The notes beneath the pieces were generated by a model, which was not told the DNA's origin, searched no databases, and worked only from the letters and a program-made list of their open reading frames with translations. The position numbers and the translations under genes were made by a program. From NCBI GenBank assembly GCA_025963715.1, contig JAOQAG010000039.1:1-64000 (forward strand): a DNA stretch of 64,000 nt. Reading direction: 5' to 3'. Positions within the stretch are counted from its first letter, which is position 1; every line of letters begins with the position of its first letter. Origin of the DNA: Bacteroidota bacterium. GTDB lineage: Bacteria; Bacteroidota; Bacteroidia; 2-12-FULL-35-15. This document shows, piece by piece, positions 368 through 12,104 of this stretch.

Positions 368-964
368 CTACTGCCCTTCCGTTTCTTTCCAGGTCTTGTA
401 AACATCCTGTTGTTTCGGGCGATTTGGCTCTATCTCCCGCAAAGGCTCGCAGGGTTTTAATGTAGCTTTGCAATCAGCAGGCAATTGCTGGTATAATTTT
501 GTTCCCTGTGTTTTCCATTCGATCATTTCATCGCTTACATCCTTTACAATTTTTGCAGGATTTCCCACCACCACTTTTCGCTCCGGGATCACCATTTTTG
601 CTGGCACAAAACACAAAGCGCCCACAATGCAATTATCACCGATCACCGCATCGTCCATCACTACCGCATTCATTCCCACCAGTACATTTTTACCGATCGT
701 GCCACCGTGAATAATAGCGCCATGACCAATGTGTGCTGCTTCTTTCAACAAAACCGTAGTTCCCGGAAACATGTGCACCGTGCAATTTTCCTGCACATTA
801 CAACCGTCCTCAATAATGATTTGTCCCCAGTCGCCACGCAATGCAGCACCAGGGCCAATGTACACATCCTTACCAATGATCACATTTCCTGTAACCGTTG
901 CATTCGGGTGAATAAATGCACTTTCGTGAATAACCGGTTTGTAACCGTTGAATTCGTAAACCAT
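368..964 (-). CDS. paaY: Hexapeptide-repeat (gamma-carbonic anhydrase-like) protein, PaaY-type
   Basis: Left-handed beta-helix hexapeptide pattern (HPNATVTGNVIIGKDVYIGPGAALRGD); located in paa cluster. Confidence 0.85.
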   Translation of the reverse strand: MVYEFNGYKPVIHESAFIHPNATVTGNVIIGKDVYIGPGAALRGDWGQIIIEDGCNVQENCTVHMFPGTTVLLKEAAHIGHGAIIHGGTIGKNVLVGMNAVVMDDAVIGDNCIVGALCFVPAKMVIPERKVVVGNPAKIVKDVSDEMIEWKTQGTKLYQQLPADCKATLKPCEPLREIEPNRPKQQDVYKTWKETEGQ

Positions 965-1091
965 GATTTAGGATTTGGAGATTAAGGATTAAGGATTTTG
1001 GTTCTTATCGAAATTTGAGTTTAGCCGATGATTGTAATTTTGTTTTATGACGTTATTATTATGCAGGGTTTATTTATTCCCGGCTTTATCT

Positions 1092-1457
1092 TTAGCTATT
1101 GGGAGTTCTTGCTTTTATTGTTCTAATGCCAGCAGAAAAAATGGCTGTCAATTCATTGGCTTCTTTCATCAAAAATGCTAATTCAGCAGGATCACATTTT
1201 ATTTCCAGGTCTTTTATAAATTCCAACCAGAATAAAGTTTCATCAGCTTCCTCATCTACTACTTTTAATTTATTCAGGAAATCAGCATTCGATTTGCCCC
1301 TGCATACCGCGCGGTAGTTAGCAGCAACGGAAGAAGATGATTTCATGATCTGATAGGTCACCACATCTGTAGATTTACTCTTGGGCAATGTATTAATAAA
1401 TTTAAAAGTTCTTATTGCAAATATTTTTGTCCTTCTCTTCAACTCTTCCTTCGTCAT
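1092..1457 (-). CDS. Four-helix bundle protein (S23/IVP-like family)
   Basis: Motifs FAIRTFKFINTLPKS..YQIMKSSSSVAANYRAVCRGKS typical of the four-helix bundle (23S rRNA IVS protein) family. Confidence 0.85.
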   Translation of the reverse strand: MTKEELKRRTKIFAIRTFKFINTLPKSKSTDVVTYQIMKSSSSVAANYRAVCRGKSNADFLNKLKVVDEEADETLFWLEFIKDLEIKCDPAELAFLMKEANELTAIFSAGIRTIKARTPNS

Positions 1458-1613
1458 AAAAAATTCTGCTATTTAGTTTTAAAGTCTGTATTGTACATTC
1501 TGCGCAAAACTAATCCAAAATCCCGAACAATTAAATCTCAAATAAAAAAATTCAATTTCCAATTTACCCACTAACAAAAAATCCTAAATCCTGAATAAGA
1601 AAATCCTAAATAT

Positions 1614-2822
1614 TTAACACTTCTCAATAATAACCGCATATCCCTGCCCTACACCAATACACATTGTTACCAATGCATAACGCTTGTTTTGTTCCTGCAA
1701 TTCAATGGCAGCAGTATTTAAAATACGGGCACCGCTCATTCCCAGGGGATGGCCTAATGCAATTGCACCGCCATTCGGGTTGATGCGCGGATCATTATCT
1801 GCCAATCCCCAGGCGCGTGTTACCGCCAATGCCTGTGCGGCGAATGCTTCATTCAATTCAATAATGTCCATGTCTTTCATGGTTAATCCGGCACGTTTTA
1901 ATGCCATGTTACCCGCTTCTACCGGGCCAATTCCCATGATGCGCGGTTCCACTCCGGCAACACCGCTTGCGATGATCTTTGCTTTCGGTTTTAAATTGTA
2001 TTTTTTCACCGCTTCATCCGAAGCCAGCAAGATCGCGGCAGCGCCATCATTCAAGCCTGCTGCATTTCCTGCAGTAACCGTTCCGCCTTCTTTTTTAAAC
2101 GCGCCTTTTAATTTTGCCAGGCCTTCCAGCGTACTCTCCGGACGCATAAATTCATCTTTATCAAAAATTTTCGGATCGCCTTTTTTCTGTGGAATCTTTA
2201 CCGCCACGATCTCTTTTGCAAACCGTCCTTTTGCCTGCGCAGCAGCCGCTTTTTGCTGACTCCACAATGCAAATTTATCCTGGTCCTCCCTGCTCACTTT
2301 ATCCCTCTCGGCAAGATTTTCCGCGGTATCACCCATAGCATCCACGCCGTACATTTCTTTCATTTTCGGATTAATAAACCGCCATCCGAAAGAGGAATCA
2401 AACAGTTGCTGGTCGCGGCCAAACGGTGCGGCCGCTTTCGACATCACCCAGGGCCCACGCGTCATGTTTTCCACGCCACCTGCAATCATCAGGTCGCCTT
2501 CACCCACCATAATGCTCCTGGCAGCAGCCATGGAAGCCGATAATCCGGATGCGCACAAACGGTTTACTGTTTCGCCCGGAACCTGGTAAGGCAAACCGGC
2601 AAGCAGCAGCGCCATACGCGCCACGTTACGGTTATCTTCACCCGATTGATTGGCACAACCCATCAATACATCCGAAATTTCTTTCGGATCGATCGAAGGA
2701 TTGCGTTTCATCAGTTCTTTTAAAACAATTGCCGCCAGATCATCCGTGCGGATCGTTGATAATGTTCCTCCAAAATTTCCGATCGGAGTACGGATGCCGT
2801 CAATGATATATGCGTTTTTCAT
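1614..2822 (-). CDS. paaJ: Acetyl-CoA acyltransferase / 3-oxoadipyl-CoA thiolase-like
   Basis: Thiolase signatures (NRLCASGLSA, NVENMTRGP-like, NEAFAAQAL, NPNGGAIALGHPLGMSGAR). Confidence 0.85.
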   Translation of the reverse strand: MKNAYIIDGIRTPIGNFGGTLSTIRTDDLAAIVLKELMKRNPSIDPKEISDVLMGCANQSGEDNRNVARMALLLAGLPYQVPGETVNRLCASGLSASMAAARSIMVGEGDLMIAGGVENMTRGPWVMSKAAAPFGRDQQLFDSSFGWRFINPKMKEMYGVDAMGDTAENLAERDKVSREDQDKFALWSQQKAAAAQAKGRFAKEIVAVKIPQKKGDPKIFDKDEFMRPESTLEGLAKLKGAFKKEGGTVTAGNAAGLNDGAAAILLASDEAVKKYNLKPKAKIIASGVAGVEPRIMGIGPVEAGNMALKRAGLTMKDMDIIELNEAFAAQALAVTRAWGLADNDPRINPNGGAIALGHPLGMSGARILNTAAIELQEQNKRYALVTMCIGVGQGYAVIIEKC

Positions 2823-3042
2823 ATTTTTTAGTTCAAAGTTTAAAGTTCAAAAGTTTAAAGTTTTGCTGCATGTATACTTAACTTATTTATTGGTTAACAG
2901 CGTTACTTGTTTATTGTTTACTTGTTTATTGTCTACTGTTTATTTATTTTTTATTGTCTACTTATTTATTTTTTATTGCCTACTGTTTACTTGTTTATTG
3001 TCTACTGTTTACTGTTTACTACCTATTGTCTCCTGTTTTCCT

Positions 3043-3552
3043 TCATTCAAATTTTTCGCCTACTACATTAATAATAACCGGATTTAGCATAACCGTATCA
3101 CTGTTCATGCCAACGGCTTTAATATTTTCAAAACAGAATTTAGCACTGGAATCAAACTCTCCGAAAATCTTAATAATCTCTTTATTAAAAGCCGCTCCTA
3201 TGTTTCTGATCCGGCCATTTTTCTTAAAACTATCCGTTAGCATTACATTCGAACATTCAAACGATAAAATAATATATCCTTCTTCATTGTTTTTCAGCAT
3301 CATTCCACTGCAATGCAACAAAGCGCCGCGATCACAATCGCCGCTGTACAAACCTGCCACACAGGCATACGGCAGACTGTAATTTACAGTATCGTGTTTG
3401 TAAACAACCGCCGTATCCTGTTTTACCTTATCGGGAATGGTATGTGTTGCATTTCCACATGCACTAAACAAAAAAGCAATTGAAATGATTATAATTAGAT
3501 ATTTCATTGTACGCAATTCCTTATTTCTTATTTTATTTTTTTCAGCCAGCAC
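3043..3552 (-). CDS. Hypothetical lipoprotein
   Basis: Lipobox-like IAFLFSACGN after hydrophobic stretch; likely start at internal MKYLIIII. Confidence 0.6.
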   Translation of the reverse strand: MLAEKNKIRNKELRTMKYLIIIISIAFLFSACGNATHTIPDKVKQDTAVVYKHDTVNYSLPYACVAGLYSGDCDRGALLHCSGMMLKNNEEGYIILSFECSNVMLTDSFKKNGRIRNIGAAFNKEIIKIFGEFDSSAKFCFENIKAVGMNSDTVMLNPVIINVVGEKFE

Positions 3553-3593
3553 ACATTTCTCAAACGCAGCAAACCAATGAACTATTGAACCAA

Positions 3594-4040
3594 TTACCAG
3601 TTCTTACTTGTTCTATAGACCGTTCCTTTAAAAAAAGCTACTTTTTCTTTCTTCTGATTGCTGATCTCTATGTGATACGTTCCGGTTTTATTGGTAAGGC
3701 TTAATTGGGTAGCTTCACAGGTAAGCTCATCATGTACATTCACTGCAATGGCAAATGAAATGGAACATTCCAGCGCCACACTCAGGCGGCCGTATGCATT
3801 CGATGCAAATGCAAGCGCACTATCCGCAAACGAAAAAGCAATTCCGCCGTGAGCGATCCCAAAACCATTTACCATTTCTTCCCGGATCTTCATTTTCAGC
3901 ATACAGTGGCCTTCTTCCGCCAACAATACTTCGATACCCAGCCATTGACTGAATCGATCTTCCGCCATCATTTTATCAACGATCTTTTTAGCAGCCAGAT
4001 TTTTTTCCATAGGAGTAGTTTTGCTACACAAAGTTACCAA
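3594..4040 (-). CDS. paaI: Hotdog-fold thioesterase PaaI
   Basis: EEMVNGFGIAHGGIAFSFADSALAFASNAYG motif; in paa cluster. Confidence 0.85.
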   Translation of the reverse strand: MVTLCSKTTPMEKNLAAKKIVDKMMAEDRFSQWLGIEVLLAEEGHCMLKMKIREEMVNGFGIAHGGIAFSFADSALAFASNAYGRLSVALECSISFAIAVNVHDELTCEATQLSLTNKTGTYHIEISNQKKEKVAFFKGTVYRTSKNW

Positions 4041-4052
4041 AAGAAACGGCTT

Positions 4053-4805
4053 TTAAAATACTATTTTTGCTTCTTTTTCCAGCACTGTTTGCAGGCAGCT
4101 TTCTATCTCCGGCAGGCACTTCCAGAGCTGTTCGAAGGAATTGATAATGAAATATTTTTCCTGCAGAATGTCCGTTCTGAAATCCGTATGAAAAATGGCC
4201 GGAATATCAAAATCCAGGTGCACAACATCCGCACTCAAACACTGTTTTGTTTCTCCCATCGACGAGATGATCCCCGCACCGTAAATTTTCAGTTCATCCT
4301 GTTCGCGGATCAGTCCAAACTCTATCGTAAACCAGTAAATGCGGCCCAGCAATTCAATGGCGCGTGGGTTATCAATGTGCTTCAACGCGATGTCGCTGAT
4401 CCCTTTAAAAAAATCCACGTAATGTTGATTTCCCAGCAGGGGAACATGTGCAAACACATCGTGGAACATGTCGGGTTCTTCCAGGTAATCCAATTGTTCC
4501 ATGCTGCGCAGCCAGCAGGTCGCGGTGAATTTTTTCATGGATAAAAATTCAAAAAATTCTTTCTGCGGGCTGATGTTCGGTACCACTTCCAAACTCCATC
4601 CGGTAAGGGAATTTAACAATTTGTTCAGCTCCCTGAAATCCGGAATTTTTTCTGAATTAAACTTTACTTTTTCAAGCGCCGTTAAATATTCAGCGGAAAC
4701 AATTGGTTTTAAAATTTCCATTTGCCGCTTGAACAATGTTTTCCATACCAAAAAATCGGATGTTGTGTAATTACTGTAGATCTGTGTTGTTGGTTTTGTT
4801 TTCAT
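4053..4805 (-). CDS. phhA: Phenylalanine 4-monooxygenase (aromatic amino acid hydroxylase)
   Basis: EPDMFHDVFAHVPLL and YWFTIEFGLIRE metal-binding motifs of aromatic amino acid hydroxylases. Confidence 0.93.
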   Translation of the reverse strand: MKTKPTTQIYSNYTTSDFLVWKTLFKRQMEILKPIVSAEYLTALEKVKFNSEKIPDFRELNKLLNSLTGWSLEVVPNISPQKEFFEFLSMKKFTATCWLRSMEQLDYLEEPDMFHDVFAHVPLLGNQHYVDFFKGISDIALKHIDNPRAIELLGRIYWFTIEFGLIREQDELKIYGAGIISSMGETKQCLSADVVHLDFDIPAIFHTDFRTDILQEKYFIINSFEQLWKCLPEIESCLQTVLEKEAKIVF

Positions 4806-4838
4806 TTTTATAAAATTTAAAGATTAAAAATCGGGAAT

Positions 4839-4869
4839 AAAAAAAGCCCGGTCGTTTCGGACCGGGCTT
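4839..4869 (-). terminator. Intrinsic terminator/attenuator hairpin upstream of phhA
   Basis: Minus strand AAGCCCGGTC-CGAAAC-GACCGGGCTT followed by T tract; perfect 10-bp stem. Confidence 0.88.
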
Positions 4870-4894
4870 GTATGTTGTGGTATAGAGTTATCTC

Positions 4895-4972
4895 TTAAAA
4901 CGAACAATACATTATCCTTCCGGGCTGGGTGCTCGGATAATAATAATAAAATGTATTGTTTGTTTTTTGCAT
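4895..4972 (-). CDS. Candidate leader peptide MQKTNNTFYYYYPSTQPGRIMYCSF (2 Phe, 5 Tyr)
   Basis: 25-codon ORF with consecutive Phe-Tyr-Tyr-Tyr-Tyr codons, ending 25 nt before the attenuator hairpin. Confidence 0.75.
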   Translation of the reverse strand: MQKTNNTFYYYYPSTQPGRIMYCSF

Positions 4973-4976
4973 GCTA

Positions 4977-4984
4977 CAAATGTA
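4977..4984 (-). promoter_or_regulatory. Candidate Bacteroidota -7 element TACATTTG (TAnnTTTG)
   Basis: Matches TAnnTTTG; TTTC lies 20 bp upstream (one mismatch to the -33 TTTG). Confidence 0.5.
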
Positions 4985-5228
4985 AATAATTTTAAACGAA
5001 ATCGGAAAGTTTAGGCCATTTTGAAAAAAAATAATCAAGCTGATAAATAAAGCAGGGACTCAAAAACAATGCTGTGTATAGGAACGCAGATCAAAAATGA
5101 TTTTTATGATGTACAAAAAGATCGCCTGTGGCGCTTATGATTAAAAATTATGATTTGATTGGTTGCAAATCTATCAAACGGGTATTTAATAATGATATAG
5201 AACTTTATACTAAGCTATTTTATTTAAA

Positions 5229-5318
5229 ACCACATAAGGCATAAAGAAAACATAAGCTCTGCGTGCTAAACCTTCGTTTTTATGCTTCGCCTTATATTTT
5301 CTTTATGCCTTATGTGGT
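5229..5318. repeat. Inverted repeat (accacataaggcataaagaaaa / ttttctttatgccttatgtggt)
   Basis: 22-bp perfect arms at 5229-5250 and 5297-5318. Confidence 0.85.
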
Positions 5319-5357
5319 AGAAATAAGTGGTCCGATTAAAAATTTGGTTCTGATAAT

Positions 5358-6524
5358 TTAATAAAATTTCTTCCCGTCTTTCACCATCAGCTTCATCAGC
5401 AACGACGGCCGATAGCGCTCTTCCTCATATAAATTATGCAGCACGCCCAATGTATCCAGCACATTTGCCAGCCCAACATCATCCGCCCATTTCAACAATC
5501 CTTTCGGATAATTCACACCTTTGGTCATTGCTAAATCAAGATCTTCCTTCGTTGCCAGCTTTAAATAAAACGAATCCACCGCTTCATTGATCAGCATGGA
5601 GATCACACGGTTAAAAATATAATTTCCGATGTCTGCGTTCTTTTTTGGTTCCGGCATTACCGCACCTTCTGCATAATTGTAATAACCTCTTCCGGATTTA
5701 CGCCCGAATAATTTTGCTTCGTACAAGCGTTTTTGAGTCAGTGAAGGCTTAAAGCGCGATTCATAAAAAAACTGTGTCCATACACTTTCCGTTACTTTGT
5801 AATTAATATCGTTCCCGATAAAATCCATCAGCTCAAACGGGCCCATTTTAAAACCGCCGTACGTTTTTAACGCCCAATCGATCGTCGCAAAATCAGCAAT
5901 GCCTTCTTCGTAAATGCGGATCGATTCGCCATAAAACGAGCGTGCTACACGGTTCACAATAAAGCCCGGCGTGTCTTTCGTCAGTACCGTTACTTTCCCC
6001 CAGGCATCGATCAGCGTTCTCGAATTTTTTACCACCTCTGCATCTGTTAATATCCCCGGAATGATCTCTACCAAAGGCATTACCGGTGCAGGGTTAAAAA
6101 AGTGGATCCCGATCACGCGCTCTGCTGCTCTGCAGGCAGATGCAATTGATGCGATCGATAAGGAGGATGTATTGCTTGCCAGGATACAATCACTGGAAAC
6201 GATCGATTCCAGGTCTGCAAATAATTTTTGTTTCACATCAATATTCTCAACGATCGCTTCAATGATCAGCCCGCAATTTTTAAAGGCATTCAAATCATTT
6301 ACAAATTGAGTCCGGTCATGGATTTCAGTAGCGTTCACATCTGTGATCTTTTGTTTCTCTACTAACTTTTTTAAGGTGCTGTCTAAATTACTTTTTGCTT
6401 TATCCAAAGCCGCCTGACTATTGTCATACACAATTACAGTATGTCCTGCAGTTGCTGCTACCTGCGCAATTCCTGCTCCCATGGCTCCCGAACCGATGAT
6501 TCCAATTGTTGTTGATGTATCCAT
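5358..6524 (-). CDS. paaH: 3-hydroxyacyl-CoA dehydrogenase, PaaH-like
   Basis: GIIGSGAMGAGIAQVAATAGH Rossmann motif; HFFNPAPVMPLVEII. Confidence 0.9.
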   Translation of the reverse strand: MDTSTTIGIIGSGAMGAGIAQVAATAGHTVIVYDNSQAALDKAKSNLDSTLKKLVEKQKITDVNATEIHDRTQFVNDLNAFKNCGLIIEAIVENIDVKQKLFADLESIVSSDCILASNTSSLSIASIASACRAAERVIGIHFFNPAPVMPLVEIIPGILTDAEVVKNSRTLIDAWGKVTVLTKDTPGFIVNRVARSFYGESIRIYEEGIADFATIDWALKTYGGFKMGPFELMDFIGNDINYKVTESVWTQFFYESRFKPSLTQKRLYEAKLFGRKSGRGYYNYAEGAVMPEPKKNADIGNYIFNRVISMLINEAVDSFYLKLATKEDLDLAMTKGVNYPKGLLKWADDVGLANVLDTLGVLHNLYEEERYRPSLLMKLMVKDGKKFY

Positions 6525-6543
6525 GATTTTTTTATAACAAGCG

Positions 6544-7917
6544 TTAAAATATTTCTTCGTTTAAAAGTTCTCCGTTTTCATAATGCCAGATACGTGCTAA
6601 TTTTCCATCATCTTCATACGAATACAATGTACCTGTTCCGTCTTTTAATGTACCTTTTTCCTGCGCTTCCGATTTATCATTATAATTAAAAGCAACATTC
6701 CAATGCACATTGTTTTTATATTCCCATTCCGCCCACAACACACCGTTCTTATGATAAAATGTAGTAATGCCATCATATTTTCCGTTGCTGATCTCAGAAA
6801 CCTGGCTTAAATGACCGTTTTCATAATAGATTTCTATTTTTGTCTGCATACCATTTTCATAATGATACACCTTGGTCAACGTTCCGCTTTCCTTATAAGA
6901 GTACAATGTACCGTTCCCTTCTTTCAGAGTTCCTTTTTCTAATTCTTTTCCTTTGCTATCGTGGTTATAATGTACTGTCCATGGAACATCATCCTTATAT
7001 TCCCAACAAGCCCAGGGTTTTACATTCTTATGATAAAAAGTAGTGATTCCGTGCTTTTTTCCGTTCTTCATTTCAGAAACGGAAGACAAGATCCTGTTGT
7101 TGTCCACGTAATTCTTTTTTACAAATGTATAATCCGGTGGTGTTTCCGAACTATTTTCTGCAATTCCATTTTTATAAGCCTTGTAATAATCGGCATTTGC
7201 ATGGATGTATTTCGCAGCGCGTTCAAAATAAGCTTTCACATCACGGCAAAGCTCCGCAGCCCATTTGGGATTTTTTTCATTCTTTATAAAAGCAGCAAGC
7301 GCCAGGACATACCCGTACATTTGCTGCGTTAAAAAACCTTGCCGGCCAATACTCCAACCCTGGTGGCTCGTCCCGGTCCATTGATTATAGCTGATCACCG
7401 AATTTGCCTGGAATACACCAAAACCAAATAAAGTAGCGCCCAGTGTGTTCACATAACCGTTTATTTCAACCAGATTTTTTTCTTCTTTTAATTTATAAAA
7501 AGCAAGATTATAGGCAATGCCGGAAACAATCGCGAACGGATCGCTCAGATACTTCTCATTCAATTCAAAAACAAATGTATTTCCCCGCATATAGCCGTAA
7601 TAATTTGCCTTTTGCCCGCTCACTGATTTTGTACTCAAACCTTCCGAAAAACGAAGATCGTCCTCTGCAAATAATTTTATTTCGCAGCTCAGCTCTTCCG
7701 GAAAATGCATTTGTTTTTTTACCCGCTCAAAAACCTGCTCCACGTGATTTTTGGTAAGCGTGATCGTTGACACAGTAAAATAATCGGTAATGGGAATAAA
7801 ACGGAATGCTGAATAATCAATTGTTCTTGCAGGCGCAAAAAACCAGGAAAGCGACCCTTCGATCCACTTTTTATCATCTTCATTTACCGGGCATTCCGCT
7901 TTAAAAAAATTAAACAT
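6544..7917 (-). CDS. Uncharacterised protein with duplicated MORN-variant/YwqK-like repeats
   Basis: Internal duplication (NGKKHGITTFYHKNVKPWACWEYK / NGKYDGITTFYHKNGVLWAEWEYK). Confidence 0.6.
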   Translation of the reverse strand: MFNFFKAECPVNEDDKKWIEGSLSWFFAPARTIDYSAFRFIPITDYFTVSTITLTKNHVEQVFERVKKQMHFPEELSCEIKLFAEDDLRFSEGLSTKSVSGQKANYYGYMRGNTFVFELNEKYLSDPFAIVSGIAYNLAFYKLKEEKNLVEINGYVNTLGATLFGFGVFQANSVISYNQWTGTSHQGWSIGRQGFLTQQMYGYVLALAAFIKNEKNPKWAAELCRDVKAYFERAAKYIHANADYYKAYKNGIAENSSETPPDYTFVKKNYVDNNRILSSVSEMKNGKKHGITTFYHKNVKPWACWEYKDDVPWTVHYNHDSKGKELEKGTLKEGNGTLYSYKESGTLTKVYHYENGMQTKIEIYYENGHLSQVSEISNGKYDGITTFYHKNGVLWAEWEYKNNVHWNVAFNYNDKSEAQEKGTLKDGTGTLYSYEDDGKLARIWHYENGELLNEEIF

Positions 7918-7937
7918 GCTATTGATTTTAATAAAAC

Positions 7938-8741
7938 TTATTCTCCTTTAAATACCGGTTTTCTTTTCTCTAAAAATGCGCTTACGCCTTCGTTGTAATC
8001 ATGCGTTGCTGCAGCATGGATCTGCATGTCAGCTTCATATTCCAACTGTTGTATCAGCGAATTATTGATCGACTGGTTCAGTAATTTTTTGGTCATGCCG
8101 ATGGCTTTTGTCGGCAGATCGCTCACCGTTTTTGCAATTGCCAGCGCCTCTGTTTGCAGGTTGGCATCTTCCGTTACTTTATAAATCATTCCCATTTTTT
8201 CCGCATCAGCCGCCATAACCTTGTCGCCCAGCATCATCAATGCCGATGCTTTCCCATAGCCGATCAACCGCGGTAAAAAGAATGTTCCGCCGCTGTCCGG
8301 GATCAGTCCGATCTTGCTGAATGCCTGTATGAATGCAACGGAGCTTCCCGCGATCACAATGTCACACGCCAGTGCGATATTCGCGCCAGCACCAGCAGCA
8401 ACACCATTTACGGCACAGATCACCGGCTTTTCAATGGCGCGGATCTTTAAAATAATGGGATTATAATGTTCGCGAACAATGCGCTCAATGCCCGGCCCGC
8501 TCTTATCAATCGCTTCCGAAAGATCCTGCCCTGCACAAAACGCTTTTCCTTCGCCTGTTAAATAAACAGCACGTATGGCTTTATCATCGTGTGCTTTATC
8601 CAATGCATCCTGCAACTGCAAAGCCATCTCACGGTTAAAGCTGTTGAATTTATCCGGACGGTTCAGCGTGATCTTTAATACACTGCCGTCGATTTCCGTT
8701 TTAATAAATGTCATTTGATTTCGTTTTTTTAGAGGAATCAA
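7938..8741 (-). CDS. paaG: Enoyl-CoA hydratase/isomerase, PaaG-like
   Basis: Crotonase signatures (GKAFCAGQDLSE, AVNGVAAGAGANIALACDIVIA, FSKIGLIPDSGGTFFLPRLIG). Confidence 0.88.
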   Translation of the reverse strand: MIPLKKRNQMTFIKTEIDGSVLKITLNRPDKFNSFNREMALQLQDALDKAHDDKAIRAVYLTGEGKAFCAGQDLSEAIDKSGPGIERIVREHYNPIILKIRAIEKPVICAVNGVAAGAGANIALACDIVIAGSSVAFIQAFSKIGLIPDSGGTFFLPRLIGYGKASALMMLGDKVMAADAEKMGMIYKVTEDANLQTEALAIAKTVSDLPTKAIGMTKKLLNQSINNSLIQQLEYEADMQIHAAATHDYNEGVSAFLEKRKPVFKGE

Positions 8742-8823
8742 ATATAAGAAATTGATTTGAAGATAAATGGGTTTGGAGCGATAGAAAGGAAGTGAAATGC
8801 CTGTATTATAAGATTAGCTTTTT

Positions 8824-8938
8824 GCCACAGATTCACAGATTAAAAAATCACAAAAAGATTGCACGGATTCGTAAAAATCGCTTTGCGATTTTGTCTGTGA
8901 AATTAATTTTTTAAGCTAAAAATCTGTGAATCTGTGGC
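8824..8938. repeat. Dispersed inverted repeat, family B (gccacagattcacagatt...aatctgtgaatctgtggc)
   Basis: 18-bp perfect TIRs plus inner aaaatcgctttgcgatttt hairpin. Confidence 0.88.
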
Positions 8939-8943
8939 TTGTG

Positions 8944-10461
8944 TTATTTTTTCACAAAGCTGATCTCGTAATTCGACCCATTTTTATTGGAATAATTCAT
9001 TTTAGCATCAATCTGCTCGATCAATGCATCCAGAATATCCAATCCTACAGAAGATTTAACGATCGCCGCCGGATCAAAGCCCGGCCCATTATCCCTGATC
9101 TTTAAAAATACCGTTTTGTTATTTTCGATTAGCGACAGCTCAATGACCCCGCTTTTTTGATTTTTAAACGCATGCTTGTAAGCATTCGTCACCAGCTCAT
9201 TCACGATCAGTGCAAGCGGAATGGCCGTGGAAACATCCAGCGAAATATCATTGATCGCTTTTACAATTTTGATCTCTTTTTCCGGATCATCAAATGACTT
9301 GAATAAATTATTTAAAATTTCCTCGATGTAAAATTTGAAATTTATATCCGAATACGATTTTGACTGGTAGAGCAGCTGATGTACCACAGCAATGGAATCC
9401 AGCCGGTTCCGGCCTTCCTGGAACAAGCTCCGGTGATACTCGTCTTTTGCTTTTTCCGACTGCAAATTCATCAGGCTGGAAATGATCGTCAGGTTATTTT
9501 TTACACGGTGATGCACTTCCTGCAGCAATACCTTTTGTTCGGCAAGCGCCTGTTCCAGCTCCGTACGTGCTTTCAGCTTCTCATTCGTTTCTATCGCCAG
9601 TGAAATGATCTGCGCGATCACCAATCCGAATTTTTGCTCCTGCAAATTCCATTCACGCGGTGTTTCCGTATGTTCGAAACACACCACCCCGATCATTTCT
9701 CCTTCAATGCGGATGGGAATATCCATCAATGAACGAATGTGAAAGGGCTCCAGGTAAAATTCCAGCAGCTCATCCGTTTTGTGATCGTTGTACACATCCG
9801 ATGTGATGATAATTTTTTCGGATTCAAATAATTTGAAATAATTCGGCATGGCAATGCGCGGCAAATTGGCCTGCGATAAAAATTTGTTCTGAACCGAATC
9901 AAAATTACCGATACAATGGATTTCAGAATGATCCTCATTGAACACCCATGCATTTACACGCTGCGTATCTACCGCACGGGAAGCCATTTCCAGGATCTCA
10001 TGCACCGCATCATCCAGCTTTCCGTCCCTGATCTTCCGCGATTTTGAAAGCGCTTCCACCGTTAATGTCTTGCGTAAAATATCTTTCCGGATGCGTTGAT
10101 AAGGCGTATTATCCTTGATGTACAGCAAAAAGCGTGCATCTGTATGCGCATCTTCATTTTTCAACAAACGCACCCGCGCTGTAAAACACGAGCCGTCTTT
10201 TCTTGTTAATTCAGTATGAAAAACAATAGATTCAGCATGTTCAGCCGCTTCAATTATTTTTTGCAATTCATTTTTCTTCTCCGGGAATAATTCCTCCAGC
10301 GAACGGCTCATTAATTCTGCTTTTGAAAAACCAATGAGGTCAATAAAATAATTACTCGTAAAGATCAGTTGATGTTCCTTATTCAAAGCAATCACGCCTT
10401 CGGTAAAATGATCAAGAATATTGGAAGTGGAAGAGATGATGTCGTTTTCGGAGAAAGGCAT
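8944..10461 (-). CDS. Sensor histidine kinase (PAS, GAF, HisKA_2, HATPase_c)
   Basis: EVHHRVKNNLTIISSLMNLQ HisKA_2 motif; LIVNELVTNAYKHAF N box. Confidence 0.9.
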   Translation of the reverse strand: MPFSENDIISSTSNILDHFTEGVIALNKEHQLIFTSNYFIDLIGFSKAELMSRSLEELFPEKKNELQKIIEAAEHAESIVFHTELTRKDGSCFTARVRLLKNEDAHTDARFLLYIKDNTPYQRIRKDILRKTLTVEALSKSRKIRDGKLDDAVHEILEMASRAVDTQRVNAWVFNEDHSEIHCIGNFDSVQNKFLSQANLPRIAMPNYFKLFESEKIIITSDVYNDHKTDELLEFYLEPFHIRSLMDIPIRIEGEMIGVVCFEHTETPREWNLQEQKFGLVIAQIISLAIETNEKLKARTELEQALAEQKVLLQEVHHRVKNNLTIISSLMNLQSEKAKDEYHRSLFQEGRNRLDSIAVVHQLLYQSKSYSDINFKFYIEEILNNLFKSFDDPEKEIKIVKAINDISLDVSTAIPLALIVNELVTNAYKHAFKNQKSGVIELSLIENNKTVFLKIRDNGPGFDPAAIVKSSVGLDILDALIEQIDAKMNYSNKNGSNYEISFVKK

Positions 10462-10528
10462 TTAGTAGGCTATTTTTCGGTTTTCATAGTAAATTTATGA
10501 TTATTTATCGAAAAACAAAAAAATAAAA

Positions 10529-11023
10529 TCAGATGCATTTAAAATAATCGAAGGGTTCCTTACAATCGTTGCAACGGTATAATGCTTTGCAGGCGGTGGA
10601 ACCAAACTGGGAGATCATACTCACATTTTCGGAGCCGCATTGCGGACATTTTAAATGCCGCTCTTTTCCCATCAATACACCTTTGTCAATGCTGGTACGT
10701 TCCGGCGGCGCAATGCCGTAAGCACGCAATTTTTCTTTGGCAACATCACTGATCCAGTCAGTGGTCCAGGCCGGAGAATACACCAGCTCCACCTTCACAT
10801 TTTCAATTCCTATTTCTTTCAGCCTGATGCGGATATCGTCCTCGATCACTTTCATCGCCGGGCAGCCGGAATACGTGGGCGTGATCACTACCGTACACAG
10901 TCCGTCTTCCATTTTCACATCGCGTAAAATCCCCAGCTCGATGATGTTGATCACAGGAATTTCAGGATCCGGAATTTCCGAAAGGAGCTTGAAAATTTGG
11001 TCGGTATTAATAATTGAATTCAT
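10529..11023 (-). CDS. paaD: 1,2-phenylacetyl-CoA epoxidase subunit PaaD
   Basis: DUF59-like N-terminus (IPDPEIPVINIIELGILRDV), C-terminal CPQCGSENV..CNDC; start chosen at MNSIINTD. Confidence 0.93.
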   Translation of the reverse strand: MNSIINTDQIFKLLSEIPDPEIPVINIIELGILRDVKMEDGLCTVVITPTYSGCPAMKVIEDDIRIRLKEIGIENVKVELVYSPAWTTDWISDVAKEKLRAYGIAPPERTSIDKGVLMGKERHLKCPQCGSENVSMISQFGSTACKALYRCNDCKEPFDYFKCI

Positions 11024-11122
11024 TATGTAATTTTTTAACACAGAGAAACAGGGTTTACAGAGCTTCACAGAGTTTTTTTCTCCCTGAAACTCTTTTTTAC
11101 TCAGTGGCCTCTGTGTTAAGAG

Positions 11123-11881
11123 CTACCATTGAGCGCCCGGGAACGAGCGGTGTACGCTCTGCATTTCGGCCAGTAAAAAACCTAAATGCTCAGAATGTTT
11201 GCCTTCCCTGCTGCCTTTTTGTTTAAAATTTGTGGTTGGGATCTGTAATGTGGCTTCCGCGATCACTTCTTTTACGCGGGTTTCCCACTGTGTTCTTATT
11301 TTTTCGAGGTCGGCTGCAACACCTTCTTTGATCAGCAGTGCATCCACCTCATCCATATCAAAAAACTCGTTGGTAAACATCCACAGATCGTTCAATGCGG
11401 TTTGCATACGCTCGTGGCTTTCTTCCGTTCCATTACCCAAACGGTACATCCATTCGGTGGTATGGCGCAGGTGATAGGTGATCTCTTTATGCGACTTAAC
11501 AGCAAGCGCTGCAATCGTTTCGTCTTTACTGGATTTTAATGCTTCGTATAAATAAAAAGTGTACACATCGTACAAAAACTGACGCGCGATCGTTGCTGCG
11601 TAATCTCCGTTCGGTTGCTCCGTCATCAGTAAATTCCGGAATTCGCGCTCACCGCGTAAAAATGCAAGATCATCTTCCGTTCTGCCTTTTCCTTCTACTT
11701 CAGCCGCATACGTTAGCAAGGCCGTTGCATTTCCTACAAAATCAAGCGCAATGTTGATCAGTGCAATGTCTTCTTCCAGGATCGGGCCTGCACCACACCA
11801 TTCGGATAAACGATGGCCGATGATCAGGTTACTGTCGCCCAGGCGTAATAAATATTGAAATTTTGCTTCTTGTAAATTCAT
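11123..11881 (-). CDS. paaC: 1,2-phenylacetyl-CoA epoxidase subunit PaaC
   Basis: LLRLGDSNLIIGHRLSEWCGAGPILEEDIALINIALD; start chosen at MNLQEAKF. Confidence 0.93.
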   Translation of the reverse strand: MNLQEAKFQYLLRLGDSNLIIGHRLSEWCGAGPILEEDIALINIALDFVGNATALLTYAAEVEGKGRTEDDLAFLRGEREFRNLLMTEQPNGDYAATIARQFLYDVYTFYLYEALKSSKDETIAALAVKSHKEITYHLRHTTEWMYRLGNGTEESHERMQTALNDLWMFTNEFFDMDEVDALLIKEGVAADLEKIRTQWETRVKEVIAEATLQIPTTNFKQKGSREGKHSEHLGFLLAEMQSVHRSFPGAQW

Positions 11882-12104
11882 GTTTAGTTTAAAGTTCAAA
11901 GTTTGCAAGTTCAAAGTTTGCTGTGTGTGCTCCTTCGGAGCCTTTTTTACCACGAAGGCACTAAGGCGCAAAAGGAAATAAAAAAGCGGCTCTGAATAAA
12001 ATCTGGTCACACAAATTTATATATCTATATCAAAGACGGCTTTACACAGATTCGTAATTTCGTTCCTGTTCCTGCCCGAATCGTTCAGGCGGGCGTTATC
12101 TGTA

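Follow-up and report, generated by a model that had tools for sequence, protein, structure and literature searches.

The phhA locus and its leader region

The window, by which we mean the whole 64-kb stretch of DNA that was analysed, carries on its minus strand phhA, a gene for phenylalanine 4-monooxygenase. The protein scores 252 bits against NCBIfam NF008877, above the cut-off of 247, and matches solved phenylalanine hydroxylases in the PDB. A gene for a PaaI-like thioesterase begins 45 nt past the end of phhA and is probably co-transcribed with it. The minus-strand features discussed first are the following.

3594..4007, minus strand: PaaI-like hotdog thioesterase (TIGR02286, 114.4 bits, just below the cut-off of 118.9)
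4053..4805, minus strand: phhA, phenylalanine 4-monooxygenase, 250 aa, the putative controlled gene (Pfam PF00351; NF008877; PDB phenylalanine-4-hydroxylases)
4839..4869, minus strand: intrinsic terminator AAGCCCGGTC-CGAAAC-GACCGGGCTT plus T-tract (regions 3:4), present in 45 leader loci
4895..4972, minus strand: leader ORF MQKTNNTFYYYYPSTQPGRIMYCSF, read from the sequence, with counterparts in loci L010, L012 and L017 and about 40 further loci
4937..4951, minus strand: candidate regulatory codons TTT-TAT-TAT-TAT-TAT (codons 8-12), read from the sequence
4977..4984, minus strand: putative sigma-A -7 box TACATTTG (TAnnTTTG), ending 4 nt before the leader ATG

Phenylacetate degradation genes surround phhA on the same strand (window 368-12010; paaY-, paaJ/pcaF-, paaI-, paaH-, paaG-, paaD- and paaC-like ORFs), and a 23S rRNA intervening-sequence protein gene (PF05635) lies within this paa region (1092-1457, minus strand). 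In addition, an interspersed repeat of about 217 bp (4992-5208), about 90% identical to at least seven other sites in the genome (around ten in a wider search), comes to an end shortly before the phhA promoter, whose -33 region it seems to include. Between paaH and phhA there is also a 28-nt inverted repeat (96%, 34-nt loop; 5229-5318), where a weak sub-threshold Rfam miRNA match is presumably due to chance.

Read along the minus strand, the -7 box is followed by the leader ORF, 25 nt, the hairpin, a T-tract that runs to 4839, and phhA from 4805. The ORF has TTT at codon 8, TAT at codons 9-12, Tyr at codon 22 and Phe at codon 25, and its stop lies 25 nt before a hairpin (4869..4844) of 10 perfect pairs, 7 of them GC, with the T-tract directly after it. 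An intrinsic terminator thus precedes phhA, downstream of the leader stop. The original prediction had described this 25-codon ORF with its codon run and later Tyr and Phe codons, as well as the 25-nt gap, the perfect 10-bp GC-rich hairpin and the U-tract before phhA, and all of these are borne out by the sequence. Beyond it, we find a 17-nt inverted repeat inside the ORF, a Bacteroidota -7 box and an antiterminator pairing. The leader region as a whole folds 5.4 SD better than its dinucleotide shuffles.

Bacteroidota make little use of Shine-Dalgarno sequences. In Flavobacterium psychrophilum, the sigma-A box TAnnTTTG lies at -12 to -5 (PMC9723704). In the window, TAGC separates this box from the ATG, which would put +1 on the A of that ATG (4972). 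Moreover, 18 of the 42 loci, the window included, have a TAnnTTnn that ends exactly 4 nt ahead of the ATG of the leader, against 0.84 per position in shuffled sequence. This spacing suggests that the leader mRNA is probably leaderless, with transcription starting from the AUG or next to it.

Recurrence, codon content and tyrosine supply

We collected 121 distinct phhA upstream regions by scanning GTDB contigs with a PhhA alignment and by a class-wide genome search, and applied to them a fixed test, which asked for a small ORF containing a Tyr cluster and for a terminator after it. The layout was found upstream of short-form phhA in 45 of these 121 Bacteroidota regions; removal of three near-identical copies left the 42 loci used in the statistics. 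Within the window's genus, the leader peptides MQKMNNTYYYYYLSAPFGMVIYCS (L010) and MHKMNNTNYYQIRSSRSGMVIYCS (L012) are each followed by a terminator before phhA, as is MKLSLKKRYDYYFRNTVPEMGVY (L017) in another family. Taibaiella soli and three species of Marivirga also bear the leader. In the upstream regions examined, no Tyr leader was seen before the phhA genes of Algoriphagus and Belliella, and no such leader before three same-genus phhA genes (L011, L013, L014). Leader peptides and RNA sequence diverge between loci, the Tyr codon run being the conserved element. The original prediction had proposed a search of related phhA 5' regions for a Phe/Tyr-rich mini-ORF and had staked itself on the Tyr run being kept in relatives; the ORF, the run and the terminator do recur across Bacteroidota. 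Judged by this comparison, the leader layout before phhA is not a product of chance.

The composition of the runs points to tyrosine. When small ORFs in the 121 regions were scored for all 20 amino acids, runs of at least four identical residues were formed by Tyr in 24 regions (shuffle expectation 0.57), by Leu in three and by Arg in one, and runs of at least five were formed by Tyr only, in 12 regions. The short ORF with clustered Tyr-specific codons is thus found in the window and at 45 loci. In the phhA leaders the longest runs hold 157 Tyr and 3 Phe, and 39 of 42 leaders have Tyr-only runs. Since 30 of the 42 runs mix TAT and TAC, it is the amino acid that appears to be conserved and not a DNA repeat; the run in the window consists of TAT throughout. 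Codon 8 is Phe in the window copy and Tyr in its same-genus counterpart (L010). The locus had originally been read as a Tyr/Phe attenuator: tyrosine sensing is supported, but we reject a combined Tyr/Phe sensor on the composition of the runs. Among 419 upstream regions that bore no phhA flag there were seven Tyr hits, all at phhA-carrying loci, which are probably the same phhA leaders seen from a shifted start. In the window's own genome the leader pattern matched 28 times against 24 in the control, and by eye the phhA leader was the only convincing one.

The leaders of another aromatic gene provide a comparison. At Bacteroidota pheA loci, 22 of 31 have an aromatic-rich small ORF upstream, and in the 20 clearest leaders, picked by eye, the longest run mixes Phe and Tyr in every case (65 Phe, 53 Tyr). 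Such mixed runs are seen at L169-L194, for example MNTFATYFFFFFYYFYF.... In several genomes, G069 and G123 among them, tyrA follows pheA at a distance of about 2 kb, so that the operon would make both products. The leader codons thus appear to track the product of the operon, with Phe and Tyr before pheA and Tyr before phhA, a match that would be hard to explain except by sensing of charged tRNA.

In bacteria, phenylalanine hydroxylase is usually presented as a catabolic enzyme. In the window's genome, which is 98.5% complete, TyrA (prephenate dehydrogenase) was not detected, a single weak PF02153 match being rejected because its sequence is that of ProC, and prephenate dehydratase (PF00800) was not found. 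PhhA therefore appears to be this genome's only tyrosine route, from imported phenylalanine, and the controlled gene would make the amino acid that is sensed. The physiological rationale is accordingly stronger than it had originally been put. Varied combinations of TyrA, prephenate dehydratase and phhA are missing from many genomes of the same genus, which suggests patchy aromatic amino acid auxotrophy in the genus.

Across 47 genomes of the class with short-form phhA, the leader is present in 20 of 30 without TyrA versus 1 of 17 that have TyrA (Fisher P 4.8e-5, inflated by related genomes); ten of the 30 TyrA-lacking genomes showed no such leader. Hand scoring of another set, made up of 49 loci, gave 20 of 30 versus 4 of 19 (P 0.003, inflated by kinship). 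The association is strong in raw counts, the independent pairs of a tree-aware test being too few to decide it, and TyrA absence was called from genome assemblies that include many MAGs. In family f15, the genus without TyrA bears the leader and the TyrA-bearing genera do not. In other bacteria, phenylalanine hydroxylase has been described as a tyrosine-synthesis enzyme, in Dyella japonica, Legionella pneumophila and Echinicola vietnamensis, with mutant fitness data in support for Dyella and for the Bacteroidota species E. vietnamensis (PMC7311316).

One could instead propose that this is a genuine attenuator that senses Phe and Tyr together, or that serves catabolic induction of phenylalanine degradation and not tyrosine synthesis. 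The paa genes that adjoin phhA, the Phe codons 8 and 25 of the window leader, and an HmgA-like ORF in 49 of 50 phhA genomes, all below the family cut-off, would fit such a role; as a marker of catabolism, however, HmgA presence did not separate the groups. Phe is nearly missing from the runs, and stalling at Tyr codons would turn the gene on in tyrosine shortage, the opposite of what catabolism needs. Moreover, the genomes in which only a few kb separate phhA from an hmgA-like gene (G088, G220, G241, G277 and G357) are TyrA-bearing and have no Tyr leader before that phhA. We consider this alternative improbable.

Switching helices and the proposed attenuation

In addition to the terminator, the leader of the window contains the strands expected of a switch between alternative helices.

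4950..4966, minus strand: region 1, predicted 5' arm of the pause (anti-antiterminator) hairpin (inverted repeat I4, 17 nt, 94%)
4897..4913, minus strand: predicted 3' arm of the pause hairpin, overlapping the strand freed for the antiterminator (inverted repeat I4)
4891..4922, minus strand: region 2, putative upstream antiterminator strand, CGGA-GG ... TGTATTGTT ..., in duplex with the spacer and the terminator 5' arm
4858..4889, minus strand: spacer and terminator 5' arm, putative downstream antiterminator strand (across-loci pairing test)

Region 1 (4966-4950) corresponds to codons 3-8, reaching from just ahead of the run into it, where it would lie under a stalled ribosome. The antiterminator would join the 3' half of the ORF to the spacer and the terminator 5' arm. 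The attenuator had originally been proposed with no antiterminator named, and the claim was to that extent incomplete.

Coevolution was assessed by comparing the pairing energy of each region with its own partner and with the partners of other loci, in 5000 permutations. The pause helix 1:2 averaged -13.1 kcal/mol with its own partner versus -10.3 permuted, the antiterminator core (region 2 with the terminator 5' arm) -13.3 versus -9.9, and the antiterminator with the spacer -16.7 versus -12.1, with 0/5000 permutations as good in each case. By this measure, both the 1:2 and the 2:3 helices coevolve. When the RNA downstream of a Tyr-stalled ribosome was folded, at least five antiterminator pairs formed in 42 of 42 loci, and with the ribosome at the stop the terminator formed. 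For the family, these results point to an antiterminator that uses the terminator 5' arm and excludes the terminator. The window's own copy is only moderately supported: its core, at -8.4 kcal/mol (z +0.3), is among the weakest of the loci and we rejected it as a strong helix, the spacer helix rescuing it in part (-15.6 kcal/mol, z -1.55), and its stall-state fold reaches -14.3 kcal/mol versus -12.6 +/- 2.8 for shuffled sequence.

We propose that phhA is very probably controlled by ribosome-mediated transcription attenuation, with charged tRNA-Tyr as what is sensed. Transcription would begin at or beside the AUG of the leader ORF, so the ribosome would probably load on a leaderless 5' end. With charged Tyr-tRNA at hand, the ribosome would pass the Tyr codons, reach the stop and occlude region 2; the terminator would then form and phhA would be left untranscribed. 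When Tyr-tRNA is uncharged, the ribosome would stall at codons 9-12 and cover region 1, the 3' half of the ORF would pair with the spacer and the terminator 5' arm to form the antiterminator, and the polymerase would read into phhA, leading to the conversion of Phe to Tyr. If the leader were not translated at all, the 1:2 hairpin would form, making termination the default. Sequence and comparison supply the ORF, the Tyr run, the terminator, the 1:2 and 2:3 coevolution, the promoter spacing and the undetected TyrA, and from these we infer leader translation, stalling, read-through and the response to tyrosine. The attenuation originally suggested is thereby strengthened, as the ORF, the run and the terminator are met again across Bacteroidota, together with an antiterminator whose strands coevolve.

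A different sensor, such as a riboswitch or a protein-binding RNA for Tyr, Phe or pterin to which the ORF is incidental, would agree with the strongly structured leader region. Yet no Rfam leader or riboswitch family matched at its gathering score in the window or in 19 leader loci (sub-threshold matches to Thr_leader, Phe_leader and PyrR were dismissed as chance-level), and it is the Tyr codon run that is conserved and not an RNA core, the peptide and the RNA otherwise diverging; we hold this reading to be very improbable. A plain intrinsic terminator that ends, for example, a short RNA or a transcript from upstream, with the Tyr-rich ORF arising as a chance (TAT)n microsatellite, has in its favour the pure TAT run of the window and the commonness of intergenic terminators, but is just as hard to credit, and we reject the microsatellite, given Tyr runs of mixed TAT and TAC in divergent peptides, runs of at least five for no residue but Tyr, and the coevolution of regions 2 and 3.

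Relation to known attenuators

If phhA is under tyrosine attenuation, the Tyr leader could serve as a sequence mark that predicts which phenylalanine hydroxylases make tyrosine. On balance, we lean towards a broader reading in which a phylum-wide Tyr-only attenuator with a leaderless ORF marks phhA genes rewired from catabolism to tyrosine synthesis after the loss of TyrA, the leader codons tracking the product of the operon (Phe and Tyr before pheA...tyrA, Tyr only before phhA). This would suggest that control of aromatic amino acids in Bacteroidota runs via leader peptides with product-matching codons. In addition, the phhA leader offers a test of ribosome loading on leaderless leader ORFs in this phylum. 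A search of open-access papers turned up no description of an attenuator that acts on an aromatic amino acid hydroxylase.

In the E. coli trp, his and pheA attenuators, a leader rich in the regulated amino acid is coupled to a 1:2 pause hairpin, a 2:3 antiterminator and a 3:4 terminator. The leader of E. coli pheA, pheL, is covered in PMC11802643. The phhA leader resembles these systems in its codon-rich ORF, its three helices and the intrinsic terminator before the first gene. In contrast to them, it would sense Tyr, its target is an aromatic amino acid hydroxylase and not an enzyme of the chorismate branch, and, in Bacteroidota, it is probably leaderless and has no Shine-Dalgarno sequence. 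In Corynebacterium glutamicum, the aroR leader before aroF contains Phe-Tyr-Phe and is reported to respond to Phe, not Tyr (PMC11802643). There too, ribosome stalling at aromatic codons lifts termination, as we propose for phhA, whose leader run is unlike that of the Phe-responsive aroR in being Tyr only.

Further parallels come from the same phylum. An attenuator has been predicted for pheA...tyrA of Bacteroides thetaiotaomicron (Table 7 of PMC1173090), and the Bacteroidota pheA...tyrA leaders share with ours an aromatic leader ORF before an aromatic gene; they differ in their mixed Phe and Tyr codons and in serving a two-product operon, whereas the phhA leaders are Tyr only. Similarly, leader-peptide attenuation has been proposed for amino acid operons of F. 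psychrophilum, another member of Bacteroidota, although, unlike the case of the window, the available text names no phenylalanine hydroxylase or tyrosine leader (PMC9723704). The hydroxylases of Dyella, Legionella and Echinicola share with PhhA the role of a tyrosine route, their regulatory mechanism going unmentioned in the accessible part of that report (PMC7311316). Thus, at the level of sequence the phhA leader has the features of trp-type attenuation, and what appears to be new is its Tyr-only sensor, its unusual target and its probably leaderless leader.
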